Of a stretch of 38,861 nt of DNA, positions 16,092-34,089 are shown one piece after another. The stretch spans positions 1-38,861 of the forward strand of contig LFLC01000055.1 in NCBI GenBank assembly GCA_001543015.1, in the 5' to 3' direction. How positions within the stretch are numbered: position 1 is the stretch's first letter; each line of letters opens with the position of its first letter. The notes below the pieces were generated by a model. It was not told the origin of the DNA. It saw nothing but the letters and a program-made list of their open reading frames with translations, and did no database searches. Source of the stretch: Nitrosopumilus sp. LS_AOA (lineage in GTDB: Archaea > Thermoproteota > Nitrososphaeria > Nitrososphaerales > Nitrosopumilaceae). The position numbers and the translations under genes are program-made.

Positions 16092-17093
16092 ATGTTGTTT
16101 TTTTGTTTGAAAATACTAATAATTGGATATGGGTCAATTGGAAAAAGACATACGAATAATTTGATATCTATTGGTAATATTGACATTATTATTTTTACTA
16201 AAAATAAAGAGGCTTTAGAATTAGAGAAAAAAGGCATTAAAATTGTTAATTCTTTATGTAACGCATTAAAAGAAAAACCTGATATTTCAATTATTTGTAA
16301 TGAGACAAGTCTTCATGTAAAAACTGCAATAAAATTGGCAAAAAATAATTCTCATTTATTTATAGAAAAACCACTTTCAAATTCATTAAAAAATATTCAA
16401 GAACTAATAAAAATAACTGAGAAAAAAAAATTGATCACAATGGTGGGATGTAATATGCGATTTCATGATGGAATAAAATTAATGAAAAAATTAATTGAAA
16501 AAAATGAAATTGGAAGAATTTTTTCAGCGATTGTTGAAAATGGCTCATATATGCCTGATTGGCATCCATGGGAAAATTATAGAAATAGCTATGCATCTAA
16601 AAAACAATTAGGTGGTGGAGTAGTATTAACTCAAATCCATGAGATTGATTATTTATATTGGTTTTTTGGAAAAATTGATGAAGTTTTTTCATATACGGAT
16701 AAGTTAAGTGATTTACAATTAGACGTTGAAGATTATTCTGGAAGTTTATTAAAATTTAAAAATAAAATAATTGCAGAACTTCATTTAGATTATTTCCAAA
16801 AACCTAATGTGAGAAATTGTAAAATTATAGGTACAAAAGGAACAATTATTTGGAATTGGGAAAATAACCACTTACAAGTTTTTAAAAATAAGACAAATAA
16901 ATTTTTGACTAAACATATTGATAAAAAATATGATAGAAATAAAATGTATTTTCAAGAAATGAAATATTTTCTAAATTGTGTTAAAACGAAAAAAATACCT
17001 ATGAATACTATAAGTGAAGCATATGAAACACAAAAAATAGCTTTAGCAATAAAAAGATCATCTAAATATGGAAAAAAAATTCTTTTAAAATAA
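16092..17093 (+). CDS. Gfo/Idh/MocA-family oxidoreductase
   Basis: An NAD(P)-dependent sugar oxidoreductase of 333 residues. The Rossmann loop GYGSIGKRH (about 13-21) and the EKPLSNS motif (about 95-101), whose Lys contributes to catalysis, define the family; the C-terminal sheet domain carries GGGVVLTQIHEIDYLYWFFG. The start is ATG with the preceding TATA box; a TTG at 16107 (MKILIIGYG) is an alternative that matches the family N-terminus better. It ends 2 nt before the neuA stop on the other strand. Genes of this family recur in nonulosonic acid clusters, so a role in making the sugar precursor is plausible but unproven. Confidence 0.85.
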   Translation: MLFFCLKILIIGYGSIGKRHTNNLISIGNIDIIIFTKNKEALELEKKGIKIVNSLCNALKEKPDISIICNETSLHVKTAIKLAKNNSHLFIEKPLSNSLKNIQELIKITEKKKLITMVGCNMRFHDGIKLMKKLIEKNEIGRIFSAIVENGSYMPDWHPWENYRNSYASKKQLGGGVVLTQIHEIDYLYWFFGKIDEVFSYTDKLSDLQLDVEDYSGSLLKFKNKIIAELHLDYFQKPNVRNCKIIGTKGTIIWNWENNHLQVFKNKTNKFLTKHIDKKYDRNKMYFQEMKYFLNCVKTKKIPMNTISEAYETQKIALAIKRSSKYGKKILLK

Positions 17094-17095
17094 AA

Positions 17096-17794
17096 TTATT
17101 TTTTGAACATCTTTTGTTTCATAATCATTTCTACTGTTTTAAATTCTAATTCAGTATCTATCATAATTCCTGTTTCAGGTTTAATCTCTAAAGGCAATCC
17201 TTTTGGAGGATATTGATTTTTAAATTTTAAAAATCTCTTAGAATTATATGTAAAAAAACCATTTAATTGAAATACTTTTGGTGCATCTTGTCTTCTTGTA
17301 GGTTTAATTTTCATTTTTTTAGAAAACTCTAGATATCCATTTTTACCCATTTCCATCATATTGAAATATGGATTAAAATGTTGAACATAAACTCCATACA
17401 CTGCATCACATTTTGTTTTTTTAAGTAACTTTATGCTTGCGGCAATATCTGAATTTTGGATAAATGGAACAGTACAATCACGATTTACAAATATATCAAA
17501 TTCATATCCAATGGATTGAAGTTTTGAAATTGCATGAATCATGACTTCTGTCATTCCTGTTGTATCTTTTGCTAAATAATTTGGTCTCATAAAAGGAACA
17601 TCTGCACCAAATTGTTTGGAAATTTTTGCAATTTCTTTATCTTCAGTTGAAACAATTACATGACTAAAAATACCTGAATCTAAGGATTTTTCAATGGCAT
17701 GGGCTATTAGTGGTTTTTTTAGTAACAGACGAATATTTTTTTTAGGAACACCTTTAGAGCCACCTCTAGCTGCAATTAGACAAATAGGCTTCAT
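17096..17794 (-). CDS. neuA: Acylneuraminate cytidylyltransferase (CMP-nonulosonate synthetase)
   Basis: It activates a nine-carbon 2-keto acid with CTP to CMP-sugar for transfer to a glycan. The 232-residue product has the CTP-binding motif AARGGSKGVPKKN at the N-terminus (about 7-19), FVNRDCTVPF (about 110-119) and RRQDAPKVFQLNGFF (about 166-180), all family hallmarks. The frame remains open upstream to 17980, but the start at 17794 is chosen because the extra 62 residues are unlike the family and would overlap the SDR gene on the other strand. The paired neuB lies 2.6 kb away. Sialic, legionaminic or another nonulosonate are all possible substrates. Confidence 0.88.
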   Translation of the reverse strand: MKPICLIAARGGSKGVPKKNIRLLLKKPLIAHAIEKSLDSGIFSHVIVSTEDKEIAKISKQFGADVPFMRPNYLAKDTTGMTEVMIHAISKLQSIGYEFDIFVNRDCTVPFIQNSDIAASIKLLKKTKCDAVYGVYVQHFNPYFNMMEMGKNGYLEFSKKMKIKPTRRQDAPKVFQLNGFFTYNSKRFLKFKNQYPPKGLPLEIKPETGIMIDTELEFKTVEMIMKQKMFKK

Positions 17795-17816
17795 AGGTTT
17801 TATATTAAATACAGAG

Positions 17817-17830
17817 TTATAATTATAATT
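17817..17830. promoter_or_regulatory. Shared bidirectional TATA region between neuA and the SDR gene
   Basis: The 14-nt ttataattataatt is a near palindrome in the 58-nt gap. It lies about 23-36 nt before each start codon, so overlapping TATA boxes on the two strands could serve neuA leftwards and the SDR rightwards. Confidence 0.45.
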
Positions 17831-17852
17831 ATTCCAAAATATATGAAGATTT

Positions 17853-18539
17853 ATGATGAAAAATAAAAGAAAAATAATTATCACTGGTTCTGAAGGAATT
17901 TTAGGTAAAGAAATTTCTAAACATTTTGAAAAAAATGATACAATACTTAAACTTGATTTAAAATTTGGAAATGATCTCACTAATGAAGAATTTGTTAAAA
18001 AATGGTTTTCTAAAAATTCTGCAGATTATTTAATTAATTGTTTTGTAACTAATGATCATATTAATAAAAAAAGAAAAAATAAAACCCTTTTTGAATATGA
18101 TCTAAAATCTTTCAAAAATTCTATGGATGTTAATATAATTTCATTATTTTCAGTTTGCAGAGAGTTTGCAAAAAATAATAAAAAAGGAACTATAGTTAAC
18201 TTTTCATCAATTTATGGAATACAATCACCTAGACCAGATATGTATGACAATTCACACAAAGATATTGGTTATTGTGTATCAAAAGCTGGAGTAATTAATT
18301 TATCTAAATATTTGGCAGCACATCTAGCTCCAGATATAAAAATAAATTGTATTGTCCCTGGTGGGGTTTTAAATAACCAATCATCAAAATTCATCAAAAA
18401 CTATTCAAAATTAACACCTCTTAAAAGAATGATGAAGAAAAATGAATTAAATGGATTGATAGATTTCTTATGTAGTAAAAAATCCACTTACATGACAGGA
18501 TCTATAATTGTTGTTGATGGTGGTTATTCTATTTGGTAA
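17853..18539 (+). CDS. SDR-family oxidoreductase
   Basis: A classical short-chain dehydrogenase of 228 residues. It has the cofactor loop TGSEGILG (about 11-18), VNFSSIYG with the catalytic Ser (about 111-118), the Y-x-x-x-K pair in GYCVSKAG (about 140-147), and the C-terminal MTGSIIVVDGGYS. Two adjacent ATGs (17853, 17856) could start it. It probably oxidises or reduces a sugar in the nonulosonic acid pathway, comparable to the SDR proteins found in bacterial legionaminic clusters; this role is inferred from neighbours. It is divergent from neuA and converges on gmd with 8 nt between them. Confidence 0.88.
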   Translation: MMKNKRKIIITGSEGILGKEISKHFEKNDTILKLDLKFGNDLTNEEFVKKWFSKNSADYLINCFVTNDHINKKRKNKTLFEYDLKSFKNSMDVNIISLFSVCREFAKNNKKGTIVNFSSIYGIQSPRPDMYDNSHKDIGYCVSKAGVINLSKYLAAHLAPDIKINCIVPGGVLNNQSSKFIKNYSKLTPLKRMMKKNELNGLIDFLCSKKSTYMTGSIIVVDGGYSIW

Positions 18540-18547
18540 AATTAATA

Positions 18548-19534
18548 TTATTCAGATAAAGGATCAGTTCTTAATTTAACATATTCCAAATCATGTTCAA
18601 CCATTTCTTTTACTAAATTTTTAAAACTTGTTTTTGGTTTCCATCCTAATTCTTTTCTTGCTTTTGATGAATTCCCAACTAGATTTTCTATATCTGTTGG
18701 TCTAAGTAGGGTTTTATCAATTTCTATTATATTTTTCCAGTCTCCCATACCCATAAATTCTGTTGCTAAAGTGAGAAATTCTTCAACTGAATGAGATTCA
18801 CCTGTTGCAATAACATAATCATCTGGATTTTTTTGTTGTAACATTAACCACATTGCTTCAACATAATCTCCTGCAAAACCCCAATCACGTTTTGCATAAA
18901 TATTTCCCAAACTAAATTTTTTTTGTTTTTTGTATTTTACCCGAGCAAGTTCATATGTAATTTTCCTTGTAACAAATTCTAACCCACGTAATGGTGATTC
19001 ATGATTAAATAAAATACCACAGCATGCAAAAATTTTGTATGCTTCTTTATAGTGATTTGTCATATGATGGGCAAAAACTTTAGCAACACCATATGGACTG
19101 CGTGGTCTGAAACAGGTTTTTTCATCTTTCTTACCTGGAAAATCTCCAAACATTTCACTTGATGATGCTTGGTAAAATTTTGCATCAGGAGCATTATCTC
19201 TTATAGAATCTAAAATTCTTAATGTTCCAAGACCTGTTACATCTGAAGTTAAGATTGGTTGCTGAAAAGAAACACCTACAAAGGATTGTGCAGCTAAATT
19301 GTATATTTCATCTGGTTTTGCCTGTCGAATTGCTGAATTTATTGAAGTTTGGTCTGATATATCAGCTTTAATTTTAGTAATATCGTCAAAAATTCCAATT
19401 TCTTCTAATCTTTCAAAACATCTATGACTAGTTCTTCTAAATGTTCCAAAAACATTATATCCTTTTTTTAGCAAAAAATCTGCTAAGTATGTACCATCTT
19501 GTCCAGTTAATCCAAAAATTAATGCGTTTTTCAT
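18548..19534 (-). CDS. gmd: GDP-mannose 4,6-dehydratase
   Basis: It converts GDP-D-mannose to GDP-4-keto-6-deoxy-mannose, the entry to GDP-linked deoxy sugars. The 328 residues are in the family range. Features are the NAD loop FGLTGQDGTYLADFLL (about 8-23), SSSEMFGD with the catalytic Ser and Glu (about 123-130), PRSPYGVAK with the YxxxK pair (about 143-151), and FNHESPLRG and KRDWGFAGDYVEAMW. The start overlaps the stop of the upstream isomerase in ATGA. A close relative acting on GDP-GlcNAc is possible because legionaminic pathways in some bacteria use such an enzyme. Confidence 0.9.
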   Translation of the reverse strand: MKNALIFGLTGQDGTYLADFLLKKGYNVFGTFRRTSHRCFERLEEIGIFDDITKIKADISDQTSINSAIRQAKPDEIYNLAAQSFVGVSFQQPILTSDVTGLGTLRILDSIRDNAPDAKFYQASSSEMFGDFPGKKDEKTCFRPRSPYGVAKVFAHHMTNHYKEAYKIFACCGILFNHESPLRGLEFVTRKITYELARVKYKKQKKFSLGNIYAKRDWGFAGDYVEAMWLMLQQKNPDDYVIATGESHSVEEFLTLATEFMGMGDWKNIIEIDKTLLRPTDIENLVGNSSKARKELGWKPKTSFKNLVKEMVEHDLEYVKLRTDPLSE

Positions 19535-20352
19535 GAAATAATCAATCCTGCTTGTTTTATCTTATCTAAAAATTCTCCGAATCCTTTTCCTCCTTGTTCA
19601 TGACCTTTCCAAACTTCAATTGCAAAACTCTTGTCTTCAAATTTATTTAAAATTGGAATAATTTTTTCAAAAGGCATATCTCCTTCACCATATTGTAATC
19701 CTTCTTCATCTTCTCCTCCTGCATCAGATAAATGAAAGTGGTCTACATATGACTCAATTCTTAATAATTCATCAATTACTGATAAATTATTTTTATTACA
19801 ATAAAGCTGTGAATGACATAAATCATAACAAACTTTTAAATCTGTTTTCAAAGAATATTTTTTTAAATCATTTGTATTTAAGAATACATTACAATTCCAA
19901 CGTCCACCAAAAAACCAAGCATATGGGGGCATATTTTCTAAAAGGAAATTCACATTTTTTAAATCTAATTTATCAACAGAATCAACAACTAATTCTTTCA
20001 TTTTATTAATTTCTGTTTGAGTAGATTCATTTAATGAATAACCACCTGGATGAACAATTAATGTTGGTGTTCCTTTGAATTGTTTGGTCAATTCAATTGT
20101 TTTGTCAATTGCTTTTTGGATCAGTTCTAAAGATTTTTCTTTAGAATGAATTTGATTTGTTTCTTTTAAACTCACAATGTCTAATAATTTTCTTTCAAAA
20201 TATTCATAACAATGAACTATTAATTTTTGATCAAAACTACCTTCTAGTTCTAAATTTATATCACTATCTGAAAAATGGAATTCCAAAATTTTAGGATTAA
20301 ATTTTAGCATATGTTCTAAATCATGCTTTCTTGTTTTCATTCCAAGAATCAT
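19531..20352 (-). CDS. TIM-barrel sugar phosphate isomerase/epimerase
   Basis: The 273-residue product resembles xylose isomerase-like TIM barrels. Metal-binding positions are suggested by TLIVHPGGY (about 104-112), NFLLENMPP (E in about 133-141), YDLCHSQLY (about 176-184), DHFHLSDAGG (about 198-207) and FAIEVWKG. The His, Glu and Asp set is complete, so it is likely active on a sugar or sugar phosphate. It overlaps neuB by one base (TAATG) and gmd by four, so the three genes form one tight operon. The exact reaction is unknown. Confidence 0.8.
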   Translation of the reverse strand: MILGMKTRKHDLEHMLKFNPKILEFHFSDSDINLELEGSFDQKLIVHCYEYFERKLLDIVSLKETNQIHSKEKSLELIQKAIDKTIELTKQFKGTPTLIVHPGGYSLNESTQTEINKMKELVVDSVDKLDLKNVNFLLENMPPYAWFFGGRWNCNVFLNTNDLKKYSLKTDLKVCYDLCHSQLYCNKNNLSVIDELLRIESYVDHFHLSDAGGEDEEGLQYGEGDMPFEKIIPILNKFEDKSFAIEVWKGHEQGGKGFGEFLDKIKQAGLIIS

Positions 20353-21410
20353 TATAAATCCTCAAATTGGATATATTCACCTGTTTTTATTTCTCTAGAT
20401 GATTTTTTCCCTAGTAATTCATAAAAATATTGAGGTGATAAACCTCTTGCAGGAGATTTAACTTCAATATTTTTTTCTGAAAATAGATCCCCTTTTTTGA
20501 TTTCACAAAAACAAACAATACTTTTCCCCAAAACCTCTCTTTGCAAAATTTCACCTCTTGTCATTTTTTTAATAGGTACCCCTTTTGCTTTTTCAGATTC
20601 TCTAACATATTTGACCATCTTCTTAAATTCTTCTGGTTCTAATGAAGCAGCCTGATCTAATCCTTCCATAGTTTTATCAAGTGTAATGTGACGTTCAATT
20701 ATTACACCACCAATATTTGCTGCCATAATGGATGGCATAATTTCTCTTTCATGTCCACTATATCCGATTGGCACATTGAATTTTTCTTGTAAAATTGGAA
20801 TTAATTTCAAATTTAATAATTCAATAGGTGATGGATATGTACTATTACAATGTAATAATACAAATGAAACATTTTCATTTTTTACAAAATTAACTGTTCT
20901 TTCAATTTCATCCATGTTTGACATTCCAGTAGAAATAATCAAAGGTTTTTTTGTTTTAGAAATATATTTTATTAATGGTAGATTTGTTAAATCTGCTGAA
21001 GCAATTTTATATGCTGGCACATTAAATTTTTCTAGAAAATCTACACTTGTAGTATCCCAAGGTGTACATAGAAAAGTAATTTTTTTTGTTGCACAATAAT
21101 CTATAATTTTTTTAAAATCTTTTTCGCCAAATTCAACTTCATTTAAAACATCAAGTAAAATTTCTGTACCTTGACTATCTAATGTTGGATTTTCTAAAAT
21201 ATGTTTTTGATATATACTTTCTAAATTACGTTTTTGAAATTTTACTGCATTTACTCCAGACTCAATTGCAGCATCGATTAATTTTTTTGCTAGAGATAAA
21301 TCACCATTATGATTTATTCCTATTTCTGCAATAATATAGCATGGTTCATCATACCCTATTGAAACACCATTTATCTCAATTTTATTTTTATAACTATACA
21401 CAATTTTCAA
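20352..21410 (-). CDS. neuB: N-acetylneuraminate synthase family protein (NeuB)
   Basis: NeuB enzymes condense phosphoenolpyruvate with a six-carbon sugar to make nonulosonic acids. The 352 residues begin at a TTG. The barrel includes IAEIGINHNG (about 27-36), AVKFQKR (about 56-62), PAYKIASAD (about 132-140), STGMSN (about 161-166), YSGHE, and ERHITLDKTMEGLDQAAS; the C-terminal SAF antifreeze-like domain spans about 290-352. It heads an operon with the isomerase and gmd. Which acid it makes (sialic, legionaminic, pseudaminic) cannot be read from sequence. A TATA-like AAATATACC (21420-21428) is very close to the start, so the true start could be a few codons later. Confidence 0.9.
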   Translation of the reverse strand: MKIVYSYKNKIEINGVSIGYDEPCYIIAEIGINHNGDLSLAKKLIDAAIESGVNAVKFQKRNLESIYQKHILENPTLDSQGTEILLDVLNEVEFGEKDFKKIIDYCATKKITFLCTPWDTTSVDFLEKFNVPAYKIASADLTNLPLIKYISKTKKPLIISTGMSNMDEIERTVNFVKNENVSFVLLHCNSTYPSPIELLNLKLIPILQEKFNVPIGYSGHEREIMPSIMAANIGGVIIERHITLDKTMEGLDQAASLEPEEFKKMVKYVRESEKAKGVPIKKMTRGEILQREVLGKSIVCFCEIKKGDLFSEKNIEVKSPARGLSPQYFYELLGKKSSREIKTGEYIQFEDL

Positions 21411-26624: not shown

Positions 26625-26740
26625 GCGATCTAATCGATCAGCTTCTGTATTTAAATCCCGTATGACTATCTCCTAAATGCAACACGGGGCCAAGTGTGAA
26701 ATACATTAAATATCAATTTAGAAAAAATTCACTTGTAGGC
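26625..26740. promoter_or_regulatory. Divergent control region between trmB and the radical SAM gene
   Basis: The 116 bases contain TTTAAAT (26651-26657) and TTAAATAT (26706-26713), TATA-like stretches. The second lies 28-35 nt before the ATG at 26741. A weak inverted repeat GATC-N5-GATC lies near 26628. No strong operator is visible. Confidence 0.35.
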
Positions 26741-28405
26741 ATGGCACTGATACAGATATCAAATCAATCAACTAAAAGTTTGGGTAAAAAATCAACGATT
26801 AGATTCACTCAAAGTATCTGCCCTGACTGTAACATGATTCTTGATGCTGAAGTCTTTGAGCGAAATAGTCAGGTCTTCATGACAAAAGTTTGTCCAACTC
26901 ACGGTGAATGTGAGGAATTATACTTTGGTTCTTATGAAATGTACAAAAAATTCAGTACATACTGGATGGATGGAAAAGGTGCTCATTCTCCAAATGTGAT
27001 GATTGACAAATGTTCTTGTCCAAATAATTGTGGATTATGTTCAAATCACTTGTCTCACAGCGGACTTGCAAACATGATTGTAACTAATAGATGTGATTTA
27101 ACGTGCTGGTACTGCTTTTTCTATGTAAAGAAAGGACTAGAAGGTGCTTACATGTATGAGCCAGATCATACTCAAATTAGAGGAATGATGAAAACTCTAA
27201 GAGCAGAAAGACCAATTCCTGGAAATTCTATGCAAATTACTGGTGGTGAACCAATGCTTAGAGAAGATATTGCTGATGTTATTAAAATTATGAAAGAAGA
27301 GGGTGTAGACCATATTCAAATGAATACTAATGGTATTAGACACGCAATGGATCCAGAGGCTGCACGTGAAGTAAGACTTGCTGGATGTAACAACTTGTAT
27401 CTTTCATTTGATGGTGTTACTGCTAGAACTAATCCAAAGAACCACTGGGAGATTCCATATGCACTTGATAGTTGCAGAAAAACTGGCACATCTGTAGTAT
27501 TTGTCCCAACTGTGATCAAATCAATTAATGATCATGAATTAGGCGGAATTATTAGATATGCACAAAAGAATATGGATATAGTTCATGCTGTAAATTTCCA
27601 ACCAGTATCACTTACAGGACGAATGGGTAAAACTGAACGTGAAAAATACCGAATTACAGTTCCTGATTGTATTCAAAGAATTGAAGAACAAACAAATGGT
27701 GAGGTAACTGTTGATGATTGGTTCCCAGTTCCTAGTTGTATGCCACTAACTAATGTAATTGAAGCATTTTCAAGTAAACCAAAATATGAATTATCAATCC
27801 ACTTTGCTTGTGGTGCAGGAACATACATCTTTGAGGATGCAGATACAAAGAAGTTTGTCCCATTAACAAAATTCTGTGATATTCAAGGAATGCTTGAATT
27901 GTTTGAAGATAAAGCAGAAGAGATTCGTTCTGGTAAAAATAAGTACTTTACAATGCTTGAAGTTGTAAGAAAACTCAAAGGTTATGTTGATTCTAAAAAA
28001 CAGCCAGCAGGATTAGACTTGGCAAAAATGTTTGGTAACATACTCATGAAGAGATCATTTGATTCAATTGGTTCATGGCATGTAAAGGGATTATTCCTTG
28101 GAATGATGCATTTTCAAGACAAGTATAATGAAGATTTGGAAAGACTCCAAAGATGTGATATTCACTATGTAACTCCAGACCTTAGAATAGTTCCATTTTG
28201 TGCATTTAATGTAATTCCTGAATGGTATAGAGACAGAATTCAAAAGAAATTCTCAGTCACTGTTGAGGAATGGGAACAAAGAGAAGATGTTAAACTAGAA
28301 GATTGTCTGTATAGAGGACTAATGAGACGTGGTGCTGGTGATGAATTAGCTGCTGGTTGTGCTAAGAGTCAAATGTTCCATGATGCATCTCAAGCAACAA
28401 TGTAA
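26741..28405 (+). CDS. tes: Radical SAM protein, tetraether lipid synthase-like (Tes/COG1964)
   Basis: Tes enzymes join the phytanyl chains of two archaeal lipids to form membrane-spanning tetraethers. This protein has the radical SAM cluster motif CDLTCWYC (CxxxCxxC, at C118), the SAM-binding ITGGEP (about 167-172), an N-terminal CPDC...CPTHGEC domain and a second Cys-rich stretch SCPNNCGLCSNH just before the radical SAM motif, the same layout as COG1964 proteins such as Tes. A GTG at 26696 gives a 15-residue longer version; the ATG at 26741 fits better with the TATA box at 26706. Thaumarchaea make crenarchaeol and other tetraethers, so the role fits. Other radical SAM lipid or protein modification is possible. 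Confidence 0.65.
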   Translation: MALIQISNQSTKSLGKKSTIRFTQSICPDCNMILDAEVFERNSQVFMTKVCPTHGECEELYFGSYEMYKKFSTYWMDGKGAHSPNVMIDKCSCPNNCGLCSNHLSHSGLANMIVTNRCDLTCWYCFFYVKKGLEGAYMYEPDHTQIRGMMKTLRAERPIPGNSMQITGGEPMLREDIADVIKIMKEEGVDHIQMNTNGIRHAMDPEAAREVRLAGCNNLYLSFDGVTARTNPKNHWEIPYALDSCRKTGTSVVFVPTVIKSINDHELGGIIRYAQKNMDIVHAVNFQPVSLTGRMGKTEREKYRITVPDCIQRIEEQTNGEVTVDDWFPVPSCMPLTNVIEAFSSKPKYELSIHFACGAGTYIFEDADTKKFVPLTKFCDIQGMLELFEDKAEEIRSGKNKYFTMLEVVRKLKGYVDSKKQPAGLDLAKMFGNILMKRSFDSIGSWHVKGLFLGMMHFQDKYNEDLERLQRCDIHYVTPDLRIVPFCAFNVIPEWYRDRIQKKFSVTVEEWEQREDVKLEDCLYRGLMRRGAGDELAAGCAKSQMFHDASQATM

Positions 28406-28455: not shown

Positions 28456-29406
28456 ATGAAATTTCTATTTATTTCTCCTAGATTTTCTGGAGGAATTGGT
28501 GGACATGCTGCAATGCTAGCAGATCAATTAGAAAATTCTGGACATGAAGTAACAAAAATGAAAACACCCCATATCCCAATAAAAAATCTAAAGAATCCTA
28601 GCTTTGCAGTTTTTGGAATGATCAAAGGAATACTAAATAAAGAAAAATATGACATTGTTCATGCATTTAATGTACCATCAGCTTTTGCAATGCATTATTC
28701 AAAAGGAACAAAAAAAGTTCTGTCCATACACGGTGTATTTAGTGATCAAGTTAAAAAATTACATTCAAGTACAGTGAGTTCAATAGCATCTGCTACTGAA
28801 TCTAAAGTATTGAAATGGGCTGATAAATTAACTACTGATTCAAAAATTTCAAAAAATGAATACAAAAAGAAATTAAATTTAGATTTTGAATATTTGCCAT
28901 CTGCAATTGATACTGAAAAATTAGAATCTATTCCAGAAGTTAAAAAAATTCCCAATCAAGTACTTTATCTTGGAAGAGACAGTTATGAAAAAGGAATAGA
29001 TATTCTAAGAGATGCTGAAAAATCCATTGATGGAAAAGTAGTATATTGTACAAATCTACCCTGGAATGATGCAATGAAACTACTAAAATCTTCAAGTGTG
29101 TTAGCCGTACCTTCAAGGATGGAGAGTTTACCTACAAATATCAAAGAAGCATTTTATCTAAAAATCCCTGTCGTGGCTTCAAATGTTGGGGGAATTCCTG
29201 AATTAGTAGATGATAAAAAAACTGGAATTTTAATTCCTACTGAAGACTCTAAAAAATTATCAATTGAAATAAATTTGATTTTAAAAAATAAAGGAAAATC
29301 TGAAGAATTAATACAAAATGCACATGAATTTGTAATTAATCAAATGAGTTGGAAAAAAATTCTTCCAAAATATATTACATTTTATGAAGATTTACTTAAT
29401 AACTAA
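28456..29406 (+). CDS. GT4-family glycosyltransferase
   Basis: A GT-B fold glycosyltransferase of 316 residues with the N-terminal FSGGIGGHAAMLAD acceptor-binding loop (about 10-23) and a C-terminal donor domain containing YLGRDSYEKGID (about 172-183) and the E-x7-E motif, seen in RMESLPTNIKEAFYL (about 221-235), followed by VASNVGGIPELV. It uses a nucleotide sugar to extend a surface glycan, most likely on the cytoplasmic face of the membrane. It opens the second glycan block and converges on the epimerase with a 4-nt overlap. Confidence 0.88.
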   Translation: MKFLFISPRFSGGIGGHAAMLADQLENSGHEVTKMKTPHIPIKNLKNPSFAVFGMIKGILNKEKYDIVHAFNVPSAFAMHYSKGTKKVLSIHGVFSDQVKKLHSSTVSSIASATESKVLKWADKLTTDSKISKNEYKKKLNLDFEYLPSAIDTEKLESIPEVKKIPNQVLYLGRDSYEKGIDILRDAEKSIDGKVVYCTNLPWNDAMKLLKSSSVLAVPSRMESLPTNIKEAFYLKIPVVASNVGGIPELVDDKKTGILIPTEDSKKLSIEINLILKNKGKSEELIQNAHEFVINQMSWKKILPKYITFYEDLLNN

Positions 29407-30308
29407 AATTCTGGATAAATTTTTTTCAAACCCTCATTTAATGATGTTTGAAATTTCCAATTGAAACTTTTCTCAGCTAAGGAAATATCTGCTTGACTAA
29501 ATTTGATATCACCTTCTAATGGATTTTTATGTATCATTGAAATTTTTTCTCCAGAAATTTCTATTAAAATATCTGCTAGATGTTTAATGGTAGTGCCCAA
29601 ACCTGTTCCTATGTTAAAAAATCCTTTTTTGATTTTACTTTTCATTGCAGAAATGTTAGCATCTGCAATATCATCTACAAAAATGAAATCTCTAATTTGT
29701 TCTCCATCTCCATTAATCTGCAGTTGTTTTTGTTCTTTCAATCTGTTGATGAATTTTGTTATGACTCCTGCATATGAACCGGTTTGACCAATACCAAAGA
29801 CGTTAAAATAGCGTAATCCTATCACATCTAAATTCATTTTAGAATATTTTTCTGCAAGAATTTCATCTTTTAATTTTGTAATTCCATAGGGATTAATCGG
29901 ATTTTTTGGAAAATTCTCTTTAATGGGAATTTTTGTAGCATCTCCGTAAATACTTGAACTACTAGCAAATACAACTTTAATATTATTTTCTTGAGCAATT
30001 TTAAAAATATTTTCAGCCCCAATTACATTTACATCGTTATACTCATCTTGTTTTGTAAATGATTCTTGGACAACTGTCAAAGCTGCTTCATGAAAAATAC
30101 CATCAACATCTTTGATATTTTCTTTCATCTCTTCAAAATTACGAATATCTGCTTTTACAAATTCTATCTCATTGATAATACCATCCAAATTCTCCATTTT
30201 TCCAGTGTGTAAATTATCAACTACTTTGACTGAATCCCCCTGGTTTAACAAAGATTTTACAATTCTACTTCCAATAAATCCAGCTCCTCCTGTAACAACA
30301 AATTTCAT
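29403..30308 (-). CDS. NAD-dependent sugar epimerase/dehydratase (UDP-glucose 4-epimerase-like)
   Basis: An extended SDR of 301 residues. It has the NAD loop TGGAGFIGSRIVKSLL (about 6-21), FHEAALTVVQESF, the catalytic Ser in ASSSSIYGD (about 115-123), YGITK for the YxxxK pair (about 141-145), and the LRYFNVFGIGQ substrate loop. It probably interconverts UDP-hexoses (GalE-type) or makes a related sugar. The gene is divergent from the UDP-sugar dehydrogenase; a CTTAAAG element (30331-30340) is at the right distance for its promoter. Confidence 0.85.
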   Translation of the reverse strand: MKFVVTGGAGFIGSRIVKSLLNQGDSVKVVDNLHTGKMENLDGIINEIEFVKADIRNFEEMKENIKDVDGIFHEAALTVVQESFTKQDEYNDVNVIGAENIFKIAQENNIKVVFASSSSIYGDATKIPIKENFPKNPINPYGITKLKDEILAEKYSKMNLDVIGLRYFNVFGIGQTGSYAGVITKFINRLKEQKQLQINGDGEQIRDFIFVDDIADANISAMKSKIKKGFFNIGTGLGTTIKHLADILIEISGEKISMIHKNPLEGDIKFSQADISLAEKSFNWKFQTSLNEGLKKIYPEF

Positions 30309-30406: not shown

Positions 30407-31795
30407 ATGGAGAATTTGGAAATTTCAAAAATTATGAATTTGGAATCCGATCAAATTGATTCTTGTCTAAATTCTGATATCATAAAAGTTGCAGTTATTG
30501 GCATCGGTCGTATTGGACTTCCAACTGCAATATTATTTGCAAAATCTGGTTTGTCTACTATTGGTGTTGATATAAACAAAAATTTAGTTGAAAAAATACA
30601 AAACAAAATCTTTCCTTTAAATGATGAACCTGGTATGAAAGAATTATTTGATGATGTACTTTCTAACCAAAAATTTTCAGTAACCACTGACATTCAAAAT
30701 GCTTTATCTCAAACAAATGTTGTTATCTTATCCTTACCTACTCCTATGACTGATGAAAACATTCCTGATTATTCCTCACTTGAATCTGTTGGACAACAAT
30801 TACATGATTTTCTAAATCCTGGTTCTCTTGTTATAGTAGAAAGTACTGTTGAACCTGGTTTTGTTGAAAACACTTTGATTTCCATAATAGAGGGTAATGA
30901 TAAAAAATTTGAAGCAGGAAAAACTTTTGGCATAGGAGTTTGTCCCGAAACTGCAAATCCTGGTGAAATATTAAAAGATTTTAAAAATTTACCTCGACTA
31001 ATTGGAGGTATCAACAAAAAATCTCAAGAATTAATATCTTCAATTTATTCTCATGTTTTTTCAGTTGATTTAATTCCAATGCCTAATTGTAAAACTGCAA
31101 ACGCTGTAAAATTAACCACTAATGTTTTTAGAGATGTTAACATTGCTTTTGTCAATGAATTAGCAATACTATTTGAGAAATTAGGAATAGATATTTTTAC
31201 AGTTTTGGATGCGGCCAAAAGAAAATATAATTTTCAAGTTCATTATCCAGGTTCAGGTGTTGGTGGTCCATGTTTACCTGTAAATTCATATCAACTCATA
31301 AATTCTGCTCGTTCTAACTCCTTATCTATACCAAAATTAATTTCTATTTCTAGAGAAATTAATGAGAAAATGCCTTTTCATACTTTAGAATTGTTAAATG
31401 ATGCTCTAAATAGTATTAATAAAAAACTTGAGAAAAGCACGATAGGAATTCTTGGGATTTCATACAAACCTAATGTTAAAGATATACAACTAGCACCTGC
31501 AGAAAAAATTATTTCTAAATTAAAATCATTAAAATGTAACGTGAAAATTTTTGATCCATATTTCATTTCAACTAATATTTTTTCTATTGATTCTGAATCA
31601 AAATTTGAAGATATGGTTAAAAATTCTGACGCAATTTTGGTGTTGACCTCCCATCAAGAATTTTCATCCATTAATCCTGAAATTTTCACAAAATTAATGA
31701 AAATTCCTCTAATTGTGGACACTAGAGGTTTATTTGATCCTAAGGAATTAAATAAATTAAAAATAGTCTTCAGAGGAATTGGAAGACCAAATTGA
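30407..31795 (+). CDS. UDP-N-acetyl-D-mannosaminuronate dehydrogenase-like nucleotide-sugar dehydrogenase
   Basis: An NAD-dependent enzyme that oxidises the C6 hydroxyl of a UDP-sugar twice to a uronate. The 462 residues have the Rossmann loop IGIGRIGLP (about 31-39), LPTPMTD (about 110-116), STVEPGF, PETANPGEI and the catalytic Cys in GVGGPCLPVN (C289), followed by a complete C-terminal domain with GISYKPNVKDIQLAPA. It is intact, unlike the homologue at 2023. An in-frame TTG at 30404 is an alternative start. The last bases overlap the start of the asparagine-synthase-like gene (TTGA), implying coupled production. Confidence 0.88.
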   Translation: MENLEISKIMNLESDQIDSCLNSDIIKVAVIGIGRIGLPTAILFAKSGLSTIGVDINKNLVEKIQNKIFPLNDEPGMKELFDDVLSNQKFSVTTDIQNALSQTNVVILSLPTPMTDENIPDYSSLESVGQQLHDFLNPGSLVIVESTVEPGFVENTLISIIEGNDKKFEAGKTFGIGVCPETANPGEILKDFKNLPRLIGGINKKSQELISSIYSHVFSVDLIPMPNCKTANAVKLTTNVFRDVNIAFVNELAILFEKLGIDIFTVLDAAKRKYNFQVHYPGSGVGGPCLPVNSYQLINSARSNSLSIPKLISISREINEKMPFHTLELLNDALNSINKKLEKSTIGILGISYKPNVKDIQLAPAEKIISKLKSLKCNVKIFDPYFISTNIFSIDSESKFEDMVKNSDAILVLTSHQEFSSINPEIFTKLMKIPLIVDTRGLFDPKELNKLKIVFRGIGRPN

Positions 31796-32997
31796 GTTTA
31801 GAAGTTAACCCTTCTTCAATTGCTTCAATTCTAACTTTACGATATGATTTTACTGCCTCAGCACCTCTTCCAAAATTAAAATGGAATGATTTTTCTCAAA
31901 ATAAAATCATTAATCCTGAAAAAACAACTCAAGAAATAATTTCAAATTATTATATTGATAATTTAGAAAAAAAATCAAGAATCGGTATATCTCTAAGCAG
32001 TGGTGTAGATTCTACTTTATTACTAGCTCTTTTGAAACAAACTATTCCTGATCTAGATGTGGATTCTTTTTCTATTCGTTTTAGTGACAGTCTTGATGAA
32101 ACAAAAAATGCTAAAAATATTGCTGAAAGTCTAAATTCAACTCATCATATTATTGAAATTGAAAATTATTTTGAAGAACTCCCACAAGCAATTTCTATTA
32201 CAAAATTACCTTTTTGGGATATTCATTGGTATTACTTAGCTAAGTATGCTAGCTCCTATTCTGATGCCATCATTTCTGGAGATGGGGGTGATGAATTATT
32301 TGGAGGTTATACTTTCAGATATGGTTCATTTTTAGACTCTATTAACTCAAAATCCTCTAAGAGAGAAAAAACCATTGCTTATCTTAACTGCCATAATCGA
32401 GATTGGATTCCGGAACAATCTCAACTATTTGGAGAAAATCTTCCATTTGATTGGGAGAAAATCTATTCTGTTATTGATGAATATTTTGATAATTCCCTAA
32501 ATCCTTTAGATCAAGTATTTTTGGCTGATTTTAATGGAAAATTGTTGTACAATTGGTTACAACTAAATCCAAAAATAAATTCTCATTTTAATTTACAATC
32601 TGTTTCTCCATTTTTACAACCAGAATTGATTAATTTTACTTCACATATGCCAAATGAAATGAAATATGATCATCCAAAGAAACTTGGAAAGTCAATTTTA
32701 AGAAACATGCTAAAAAAATTTAATGTGGAAAAATTTGTAATGCAAAAAAAACAAGGGTTTTCTGTAGATACAAAAAGTCATTGGAAAAATTATGGAAAAA
32801 AACTATGTAAAAATTTTCTAATAGATGGTGAAATTATTAAAGATAAATTAATCAATAAAAATTGGATTCTTGAAAATATTGAAAAAGATCTTGATGTTAG
32901 ATATGTGAATAAATTTTATGGACTCTTGGCTTTAGAAATCTGGTACAGATTATTCATCATAAAAAATTTATCATCCTCGGAAAAATTAATAATTTAA
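31792..32997 (+). CDS. Asparagine-synthase-like amidotransferase without glutaminase domain
   Basis: The 401 residues correspond only to the synthetase half of class B asparagine synthases. The PP-loop SSGVDST is at 69-75, ISGDGGDELFGGY follows (about 160-172), and the terminal helices are present. The N-terminal glutaminase with its Cys2 is absent: the protein starts with what looks like the linker (SIASILTLRYDF). It adenylates a carboxylate and amidates it with ammonia, and must obtain ammonia otherwise, either free or from a separate subunit. It is translationally coupled to a dehydrogenase that makes uronic acids, so uronamide formation on a sugar is a reasonable inference. Start TTG overlaps the preceding stop. 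Confidence 0.8.
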   Translation: MSLEVNPSSIASILTLRYDFTASAPLPKLKWNDFSQNKIINPEKTTQEIISNYYIDNLEKKSRIGISLSSGVDSTLLLALLKQTIPDLDVDSFSIRFSDSLDETKNAKNIAESLNSTHHIIEIENYFEELPQAISITKLPFWDIHWYYLAKYASSYSDAIISGDGGDELFGGYTFRYGSFLDSINSKSSKREKTIAYLNCHNRDWIPEQSQLFGENLPFDWEKIYSVIDEYFDNSLNPLDQVFLADFNGKLLYNWLQLNPKINSHFNLQSVSPFLQPELINFTSHMPNEMKYDHPKKLGKSILRNMLKKFNVEKFVMQKKQGFSVDTKSHWKNYGKKLCKNFLIDGEIIKDKLINKNWILENIEKDLDVRYVNKFYGLLALEIWYRLFIIKNLSSSEKLII

Positions 32998-34089
32998 TTA
33001 TAAAACAAGTGTTGCAAAAATTTGACCTTTCTTATTAGAATATTTTTCTTCTATTATCTTAAAACCGATACTAGAAAGTTTCTCAATTAAATTTTCTGCA
33101 CTATCGTGATATTGAATAAGAATTTGTGAAAACTTCTTTAATGTAATCTCTGGTGTTTTTAGAATTACATCATATTCACATCCTTCACAATTCATTTTTA
33201 ATACTCCATCAGAAATATTGTATCTATTACATAATTCTGTGAGTGTAGTTTGCTTAATGATTTCACCTGAATCTGATTTTTCCATTTTATAGCTTAATCC
33301 TGATAAACTAGGATCAATTTGAATTTCTTCTGATTTAGAGGAGCAACCTGATAAAAGCAAATCAATCTTTTCTTCCAATGAATTTTTTTGAACATTTTCA
33401 CGCCCAAAATTAAAATTTTTGGGAAATGGTTCCAATCCTATAACCTTCCTTGCCCCTTTTACTGCAAAATAGATTGATGAATCTGCAATGTTTGAACCAA
33501 TATCTATGATCACTTTATCTTTGAAATCTAATTTACCATATACTTCACCAATAAATGCTGATGAAACATCACCTAACCACCATCCTTCAAAAACTATTTT
33601 TTTCTTTGAATCAGTTTCTATGATCAATGTCGAATAATCATTTTCAAATGTTATGGGACATTTTTCATTAAACATAAGATTTGAGAAATTCTCTAATCTT
33701 TTTATCAAAGCTAAGTTTGTTGCTTTTAATTTTTCACTAATTATATATGAGAAAAATTTGTATTTCAAACCAAGTTTTAACTCTAATTTTAAATTGATTT
33801 TAGTCTTCTCATTTTTTTCTTGAAATGTTATGTTTATTGTTGATTTTTTTAATGGGCCATCAACAATTTCAAATAAGAATGTATTATCTGATATTTTTTT
33901 ATGATTTACTTTAAATTCAAATGTTTTTTTTATTTTTTTTATTGGGATTGTTTGTCTAAACAATCCTTCATTTTTGTTTATTAACTCATTTTTGATTTGT
34001 GGTGGAGATAATTTTAGAATTAATTCAATATTTCCAAATATTTCTAACAAATGTTTTTGTTTAGATTCTGATATGTAACTAAATTCCAA
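32998..34089 (-). CDS. FkbM-family methyltransferase with N-terminal SRPBCC-like domain
   Basis: A 363-residue two-domain protein. Residues about 1-140 form a beta-rich stretch ending in a long amphipathic helix, like SRPBCC (START/polyketide cyclase) ligand-binding folds. Residues about 165-363 are an FkbM methyltransferase with the SAM loop DIGSN (196-200), the acidic residue in GLEPFPKNF, and KMNCEGCE (298-305), which replaces the usual K-x-D-x-E-G-x-E. FkbM enzymes O-methylate sugars or lipids. The SRPBCC assignment is by pattern only. Its stop abuts that of the asparagine-synthase-like gene without a spacer. Confidence 0.75.
   Translation of the reverse strand: MEFSYISESKQKHLLEIFGNIELILKLSPPQIKNELINKNEGLFRQTIPIKKIKKTFEFKVNHKKISDNTFLFEIVDGPLKKSTINITFQEKNEKTKINLKLELKLGLKYKFFSYIISEKLKATNLALIKRLENFSNLMFNEKCPITFENDYSTLIIETDSKKKIVFEGWWLGDVSSAFIGEVYGKLDFKDKVIIDIGSNIADSSIYFAVKGARKVIGLEPFPKNFNFGRENVQKNSLEEKIDLLLSGCSSKSEEIQIDPSLSGLSYKMEKSDSGEIIKQTTLTELCNRYNISDGVLKMNCEGCEYDVILKTPEITLKKFSQILIQYHDSAENLIEKLSSIGFKIIEEKYSNKKGQIFATLVL

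Follow-up and report, generated by a model that had tools for sequence, protein, structure and literature searches.

The window (the whole stretch of DNA analyzed here, 38,861 nucleotides from Nitrosopumilus sp. LS_AOA) carries, within a cluster of glycan genes, a gene for an NDP-sugar 6-dehydrogenase followed by a gene for a short protein of the asparagine synthetase B (AsnB) superfamily, hereafter the short AsnB (Table 1). A sequence-only reading of this DNA had proposed that the two form a uronamide module, in which the dehydrogenase makes a uronic acid and the short AsnB amidates it. The reading also took the host to be an ammonia-oxidizing archaeon, and the genome indeed encodes an archaeal AmoA (match 1.8e-115).

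Table 1. Features of the window discussed in the text, with positions counted from its first nucleotide
Feature	Position	Strand	Details
Radical SAM-like protein (ISNQSTK...)	26696..28405		
GT4 glycosyltransferase	28456..29406	+	Member of the conserved neighborhood
NAD-dependent sugar-nucleotide epimerase (GalE/TviC-like)	29403..30308	-	Divergent from the dehydrogenase/AsnB pair
NDP-sugar 6-dehydrogenase (UGD/WecC/WbpA superfamily)	30407..31795	+	462 aa; ATG 30407; TGA stop
Stop/start overlap, 4 bp, TTGA	31792..31795	+	Dehydrogenase stop and AsnB-like start
Glutaminase-less Asn-synthase-fold (PF00733) amide ligase (predicted)	31792..32997	+	401 aa; TTG 31792
FkbM-family methyltransferase	32998..34089	-	Convergent, abuts the AsnB-like gene; part of the glycan cluster
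Second glycan block	16092..21410		

The dehydrogenase, whose open reading frame could alternatively start at TTG 30404, covers all three Pfam domains of its type (PF03721, PF00984 and PF03720, UDPG_MGDP_dh) and scored 381.9 bits against TIGR03026 (cut-off 189.8), which makes it a member of the superfamily. For the short AsnB, a Pfam search returned PF00733 at residues 60-386 (profile positions 16-354 of 354, 132.6 bits against a cut-off of 21) and no GATase family. Its score against TIGR01536, the glutamine-hydrolyzing AsnB, was 93.9 bits, below the cut-off of 267.1, and it has no N-terminal class II glutaminase domain with Cys1 of the TIGR01536 type. Its open frame begins just 12 codons 5' of TTG 31792, and therefore no glutaminase can be read in frame; the DNA 5' of it is dehydrogenase coding sequence, with no frameshifted glutaminase there, and the reading frame starts at the point where the glutaminase domain of relatives stops. 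Two observations of the sequence-only reading, that the stop codon of the dehydrogenase overlaps the start of the AsnB-like gene and that the latter lacks the whole glutaminase half, were thus confirmed, with both reading frames as it had described them. Overlap or abutment of the two genes is also kept in relatives.

The pair lies in a neighborhood whose order, radical SAM protein, GT4 glycosyltransferase, epimerase, dehydrogenase and short AsnB, is conserved. The epimerase family is found near the short AsnB in most of the loci compared, and the enzyme may determine which stereoisomer of the uronic acid is made. The place of the FkbM-family methyltransferase beside the short AsnB is not kept in the compared loci. 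The radical SAM-like protein borders the variable glycan region in 25 of 44 sources, including the window; it may therefore lie at the boundary of an exchangeable island. A second glycan block in the window has, judging from translations, the look of nonulosonic (sialic acid-like) acid synthesis, with reading frames for a GFO/IDH/MocA oxidoreductase, an SDR and NeuB-like, CMP-sugar cytidylyltransferase-like, GDP-mannose-dehydratase-like and sugar isomerase-like proteins.

Fold, acceptor loop and distribution of the short AsnB

AlphaFold2 modeled almost all of the short AsnB with high confidence (pLDDT 95.1, pTM 0.93), so the protein looks complete without a glutaminase half. Among solved structures, the predicted fold best matches TsnB9 (PDB 7ylz) over its synthetase half, from residue 173 on (Z 29.4, 351 aligned residues, rmsd 3.0), although TsnB9 itself is a 576-residue chain with an N-terminal half, is named a hydroxyamidotransferase and shares only about 15% identity with the short AsnB. 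Carbapenam synthetase, beta-lactam synthetase, human ASNS and E. coli AsnB follow. The residues expected of an ATP-pyrophosphatase are intact: the S-x-G-x-D-S loop (S-[SG]-G-x-D-S), D164, D167/E168, D246, K250 and K320 are kept across the 52-53 archaeal proteins compared. An apparent loss of the Arg387 equivalent proved to be a one-column alignment offset, with K250 invariant.

The acceptor side looks different. The TTIRAS loop of E. coli AsnB, which recognizes aspartate and is typical of TIGR01536, is lacking in the short AsnB; the matching segment carries a three-residue deletion. It reads PFWD---IHWYY in the window protein and PFWD-LHWYY in the main clade, whereas the divergent clade has PRWN. 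The segment varies in full-length relatives from other taxa as well. Different loops in different gene settings would fit different acceptors.

Such a protein might join the uronic acid to another amine (an amino acid, some other amine or hydroxylamine) and form a substituted amide, for example one like the threonine amide that occurs in Methanococcus N-glycans. The loss of the glutaminase domain would then reflect the use of an acceptor amine for which no channel is needed. The rebuilt acceptor loop speaks for this explanation, as does the presence among the best structural matches of TsnB9 and the beta-lactam and carbapenam synthetases, which use nitrogen nucleophiles other than ammonia. We nevertheless regard it as rather unlikely: the published AsnB relatives that we found linked to uronic acids (PGN_1234 and P. 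aeruginosa WbpS) make plain uronamides, and we saw no amine-making gene that consistently co-occurs in the compared loci.

Strong homologues of the short AsnB (E below 1e-40) were found in 56 of the 151 Nitrosopumilaceae genomes and were absent from 95, some of which are incomplete drafts; almost all of these homologues have an open frame of about 400-430 aa. Within the genus, 8 of 22 congeners carry the gene and 14 lack it. Beyond the family, no homologue at 1e-30 turned up in a sample of 300 genomes of the phylum, and scanning named genomes yielded a single source of the short AsnB, a Nitrososphaeraceae MAG (L092). The lack of a glutaminase half is therefore a trait of the family that extends well beyond the window. 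The archaeal short proteins form a single clade (53 of 53 tips, support 1.0, stem 0.98) in a quick FastTree phylogeny in which many inner supports are low. Their next relatives, which are bacterial apart from one nanoarchaeal protein, are full-length, with 167-313 residues 5' of the archaeal start position, where the archaeal proteins have almost none. A short N-terminal stretch of the archaeal proteins (...ILTLRYD...) aligns with the inter-domain segment of long relatives (for example, YFLTFEYVP), which suggests that the short AsnB arose from an ancestor with both domains that lost its glutaminase part. One apparent short form, from a KSB1 bacterium (L094), is not genuine: a separate open stretch immediately upstream, next to masked letters, encodes the glutaminase domain.

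The distribution also bears on the simplest use of the superfamily, in which the protein is a plain ammonia-dependent asparagine synthetase that lies in a glycan cluster by chance. It belongs to the same superfamily (the TIGR01536 score given above, although under the cut-off), and the genome has no full-length AsnB. Yet more than half of the congeners and of the family genomes do without the gene (some of the latter being incomplete drafts), the gene lies in glycan clusters throughout, and the canonical aspartate-recognition loop is lost. We rejected this explanation on the patchy distribution and consider it barely credible. As a separate observation, the source genome encodes two further PF00733 proteins without a glutaminase half, one of 253 aa (L002:1468-2229) and one of 319 aa (L003:970-1929) with a zinc-ribbon-like C-terminal end; proteins of about 250-285 aa resembling the former are found in most family genomes.

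Coupling to the dehydrogenase and the state of its active site

Lack of coupling in relatives had been named as a result that would count against the module. We counted copies of the window's dehydrogenase type at above 400 bits and found that 39 of 42 lie directly upstream of a short AsnB. The remaining three are two copies at contig ends (G111 and G116:C72) and one that lies 1.4 kb from a short AsnB on the same strand (G122). In another genome (G115), the dehydrogenase is split across two contigs, with its end preceding the short AsnB. Among 35 distinct pairs, the nearest usable start of the short AsnB overlaps the dehydrogenase gene in 29 (-4 to -17), lies just downstream in three and was not resolved in three. 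A 796 aa open frame in one genome (G023) resembled a fusion of the two proteins; its extra length has no match to a dehydrogenase, and we discarded it.

The dependence runs one way, as the short AsnB is also found without this dehydrogenase type, and the cognate dehydrogenase is missing from a sizeable minority of short AsnB loci. Most such loci in the main clade are placed in nested groups of the tree, which suggests secondary loss or replacement of the cognate dehydrogenase.

The dehydrogenase had been described as intact, with its catalytic Cys. It is full-length and has this residue: C289, K235, N239 and E181, which correspond to Cys260, Lys204, Asn208 and Glu141 of SpUGDH, are kept in all 38 paired dehydrogenases. 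The description fails at three other positions conserved in the superfamily, where all 38 have Arg35, Asn232 and Asn293 in place of Tyr10, Glu201 and Asp264. In a published alignment of 229 sequences, Asp264 and Glu201 are invariant and Tyr10 is 98% conserved, an observation rather than a formal criterion of the family (PMC4794789). Asp264 is the base that activates the catalytic water, Tyr10 catalyzes hydrolysis of the thioester, and the human D280N change is called detrimental. The closest solved relative by sequence, a UDP-N-acetyl-D-mannosaminuronic acid dehydrogenase-like protein (PDB 4r16, 1e-73), retains the Tyr and the Asp, unlike the window dehydrogenase. Judging by these residues, the enzyme is not canonical and its chemistry is possibly altered.

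These substitutions (Y10R, E201N and D264N) raise the prospect that the dehydrogenase makes no ordinary uronic acid, and instead stops at another intermediate or hands on an enzyme thioester, so that the product of the pair would be something other than a uronamide formed by the textbook route. The roles of Asp264 and Tyr10 and the human mutant favor such a change. As a control, we inspected 17 related dehydrogenases elsewhere in the phylum. Asp264 is replaced by N or Y in 11 of them, and none has N at Glu201. We therefore dropped the idea that the change of Asp264 to Asn is specific to dehydrogenases paired with AsnB: archaeal dehydrogenases away from AsnB have lost the Asp too, several of them beside GFO/IDH/MocA-type oxidoreductases (compare WbpA/WbpB), so its loss belongs to a broader archaeal lineage and is not tied to amidation. 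This broader lineage presumably still makes uronic acids. In addition, the dehydrogenase near one group of short AsnBs, described below, has the Asp. An altered product thus appears improbable to us. Of the dehydrogenases compared, only those of the paired family show the Glu201 change.

In a broad Thermoproteota lineage of dehydrogenases (L226-L242), Trp replaces Tyr10 and either Asn or Tyr replaces Asp264, and thus Asp264 is not invariant in archaea. Several members adjoin a GFO/IDH/MocA-type oxidoreductase, one confirmed by Pfam and the others read from the start of the reading frame.

Uronic acid genes and the nitrogen donor

Uronic acid biosynthesis genes, as found around WbpS, also surround the short AsnB in loci with other dehydrogenases. 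In the sub-clade without the cognate dehydrogenase (L199, L200, L201, L202, L205, L206 and L207), WecB and a WecC-type dehydrogenase, the setting of the UDP-ManNAcA route, lie a few kb upstream in seven of seven loci, and it is this nearby dehydrogenase that retains Asp at the Asp264 position. Divergent short AsnBs (L051, L052, L053, L055, L070 and others) have genes for a DegT aminotransferase, a hexapeptide transferase and an epimerase as neighbors, in many cases together with a dehydrogenase gene, a setting resembling the Wbp route to diacetamido-uronic acids. Two main-clade loci (L062 and L067) have no dehydrogenase within the stretch read. The short AsnB thus travels with uronic acid genes, a context that supports amide formation on a uronic acid as its likely role. 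In dehydrogenases near divergent short AsnBs (L048, L049, L051, L055, L070 and L211), Tyr occupies the Asp264 position (GGLCIPVYP) and Gly that of Asn208.

The proposal would also have been weakened by a glutaminase encoded nearby. We searched the window and 42 archaeal contexts with the AsnB glutaminase-domain profile and eleven host glutaminases and found none; the single match among the contexts was in the KSB1 bacterium mentioned above. The sequence-only reading had further suggested a profile search for a separate glutaminase subunit. In the genome, this search gave nine class I matches and two class II matches. The latter, 602 and 494 aa long, resemble GlmS and PurF in their length and their start. 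All 22 congeners have two class II matches, and class I matches average 9.1 both in the 8 carriers and in the 14 non-carriers, so no dedicated glutaminase of either class tracks with the short AsnB.

A glutaminase encoded elsewhere, either a class I housekeeping enzyme such as HisH or one of an unknown class, could still dock and supply ammonia in trans. Glutaminases commonly occur as subunits, the NAD synthetase of T. thermophilus relies on a separate one (PMC3376133), and the genome has the eleven matches just described. Against this stand the equal counts in congeners with and without the gene and the absence of a glutaminase near it in the compared archaeal contexts, and we see only a slim chance that ammonia arrives by this route. 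Since the short AsnB has neither a glutaminase domain nor an evident partner, its nitrogen most likely comes from free ammonia. The single-domain NAD synthetase NadE of M. jannaschii, another archaeal ATP-pyrophosphatase that carries out amidation without a glutaminase domain, was shown to use ammonia (PMC3376133); together with the lack of a tracking glutaminase, this precedent makes free ammonia the simplest donor. NadE differs in family and acceptor, and its single-domain form is ancestral, whereas the short AsnB appears to have lost a domain.

A possible uronamide pathway for surface glycans

Our preferred reading, held at about even odds, is that the two enzymes together supply a uronamide, or at the least a uronic acid amide, for incorporation into a surface glycan, with free ammonia as the most likely donor. 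Weighing against it are the substitutions in the dehydrogenase, the short AsnB loci that lack the cognate dehydrogenase and the absence of any hexuronamide from marine ammonia oxidizers in the glycan literature covered. The dehydrogenase would oxidize C6 of a UDP-sugar, probably a UDP-HexNAc, to a uronic acid; the short AsnB would bind ATP and adenylate the carboxylate of the uronate, and ammonia would then displace AMP to leave a C6 carboxamide. We infer the substrate, the order of the steps (on a nucleotide- or lipid-linked sugar), the nitrogen donor and the destination of the sugar. Of the original proposal, the coupling and the absence of a nearby or frameshifted glutaminase hold, and the uronic acid settings are in keeping with it; a fully intact dehydrogenase does not hold. 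A more far-reaching version, in which the dehydrogenase, lacking the water-activating residues, and the ligase form one complex that passes ammonia straight into a surface-glycan uronamide, strikes us as a long shot.

The premise that bacterial AsnB relatives amidate sugar carboxylates is established. In P. gingivalis, wbpE lies near wbpS/PGN_1234, and deletion of PGN_1234 abolishes a glucuronamide (PMC7468200). WbpS of P. aeruginosa O6 and WbpS/PGN_1234 of P. gingivalis resemble the short AsnB in superfamily and in their place among uronic acid (Wbp) genes. They are described as glutamine amidotransferases, whereas the archaeal proteins lack the glutaminase half; these also differ from WbpS in their acceptor loop and in that their genes immediately follow a dehydrogenase gene. 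The S-layer O-glycan of Tannerella forsythia contains ManNAcA and ManNAc-uronamide, and its cluster has asnB, wecC and wecB (PMC6120980), the same gene set as the archaeal WecB sub-clade. The T. forsythia AsnB, however, has 605 aa and serves an O-glycan, and its authors tentatively assign it to an acetamidino group. The use of such an enzyme in an ammonia oxidizer had been put forward as undescribed. This stands for the glutaminase-less archaeal form, of which we found no report in the open-licence literature, but not for uronamide synthesis by AsnB relatives, which is known from bacteria.

Surface glycans of ammonia-oxidizing archaea (AOA) have been described in a few species. N. maritimus bears 17 glycans per S-layer protein in a charged, ammonium-binding lattice, Nitrosopumilus piranensis showed no N-glycan, and Nitrososphaera (Ns.) viennensis has a nitrogen-rich hexasaccharide that includes four Hex(NAc)2(CONH2) units, each of 287.11 Da, as well as HexA(NAc)2. 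The AOA glycan literature covered reports no hexuronamide in marine AOA. We considered the "CONH2" sugar of Ns. viennensis as direct proof of a uronamide and rejected it: its mass of 287.11 fits Hex(NAc)2 plus CHNO, for example a carbamoyl group, and not a plain uronamide, as we calculate 257.101 for a diacetamido-hexuronamide residue (C10H15N3O5). Separately, one compared glycan locus encodes a carbamoyltransferase (L043:573-2276, PF02543 and PF16861), as does L050 by clustering, and enzymes of this type might produce carbamoylated sugars like the Ns. viennensis unit.

The uronamide proposal makes a prediction for mass spectrometry, a HexNAc-uronamide at 216.075 as opposed to the acid at 217.059. 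If true, the short AsnB would be, as far as we found, the first glutamine-free uronamide synthase of the AsnB family. Were the single-complex version correct, an ammonia oxidizer would be spending its energy substrate to neutralize charges on an ammonium-trapping surface. A patchy but widespread enzyme that neutralizes glycan carboxylates could tune the surface charge, phage recognition and nitrogen content of cells that are some of the commonest in the ocean.
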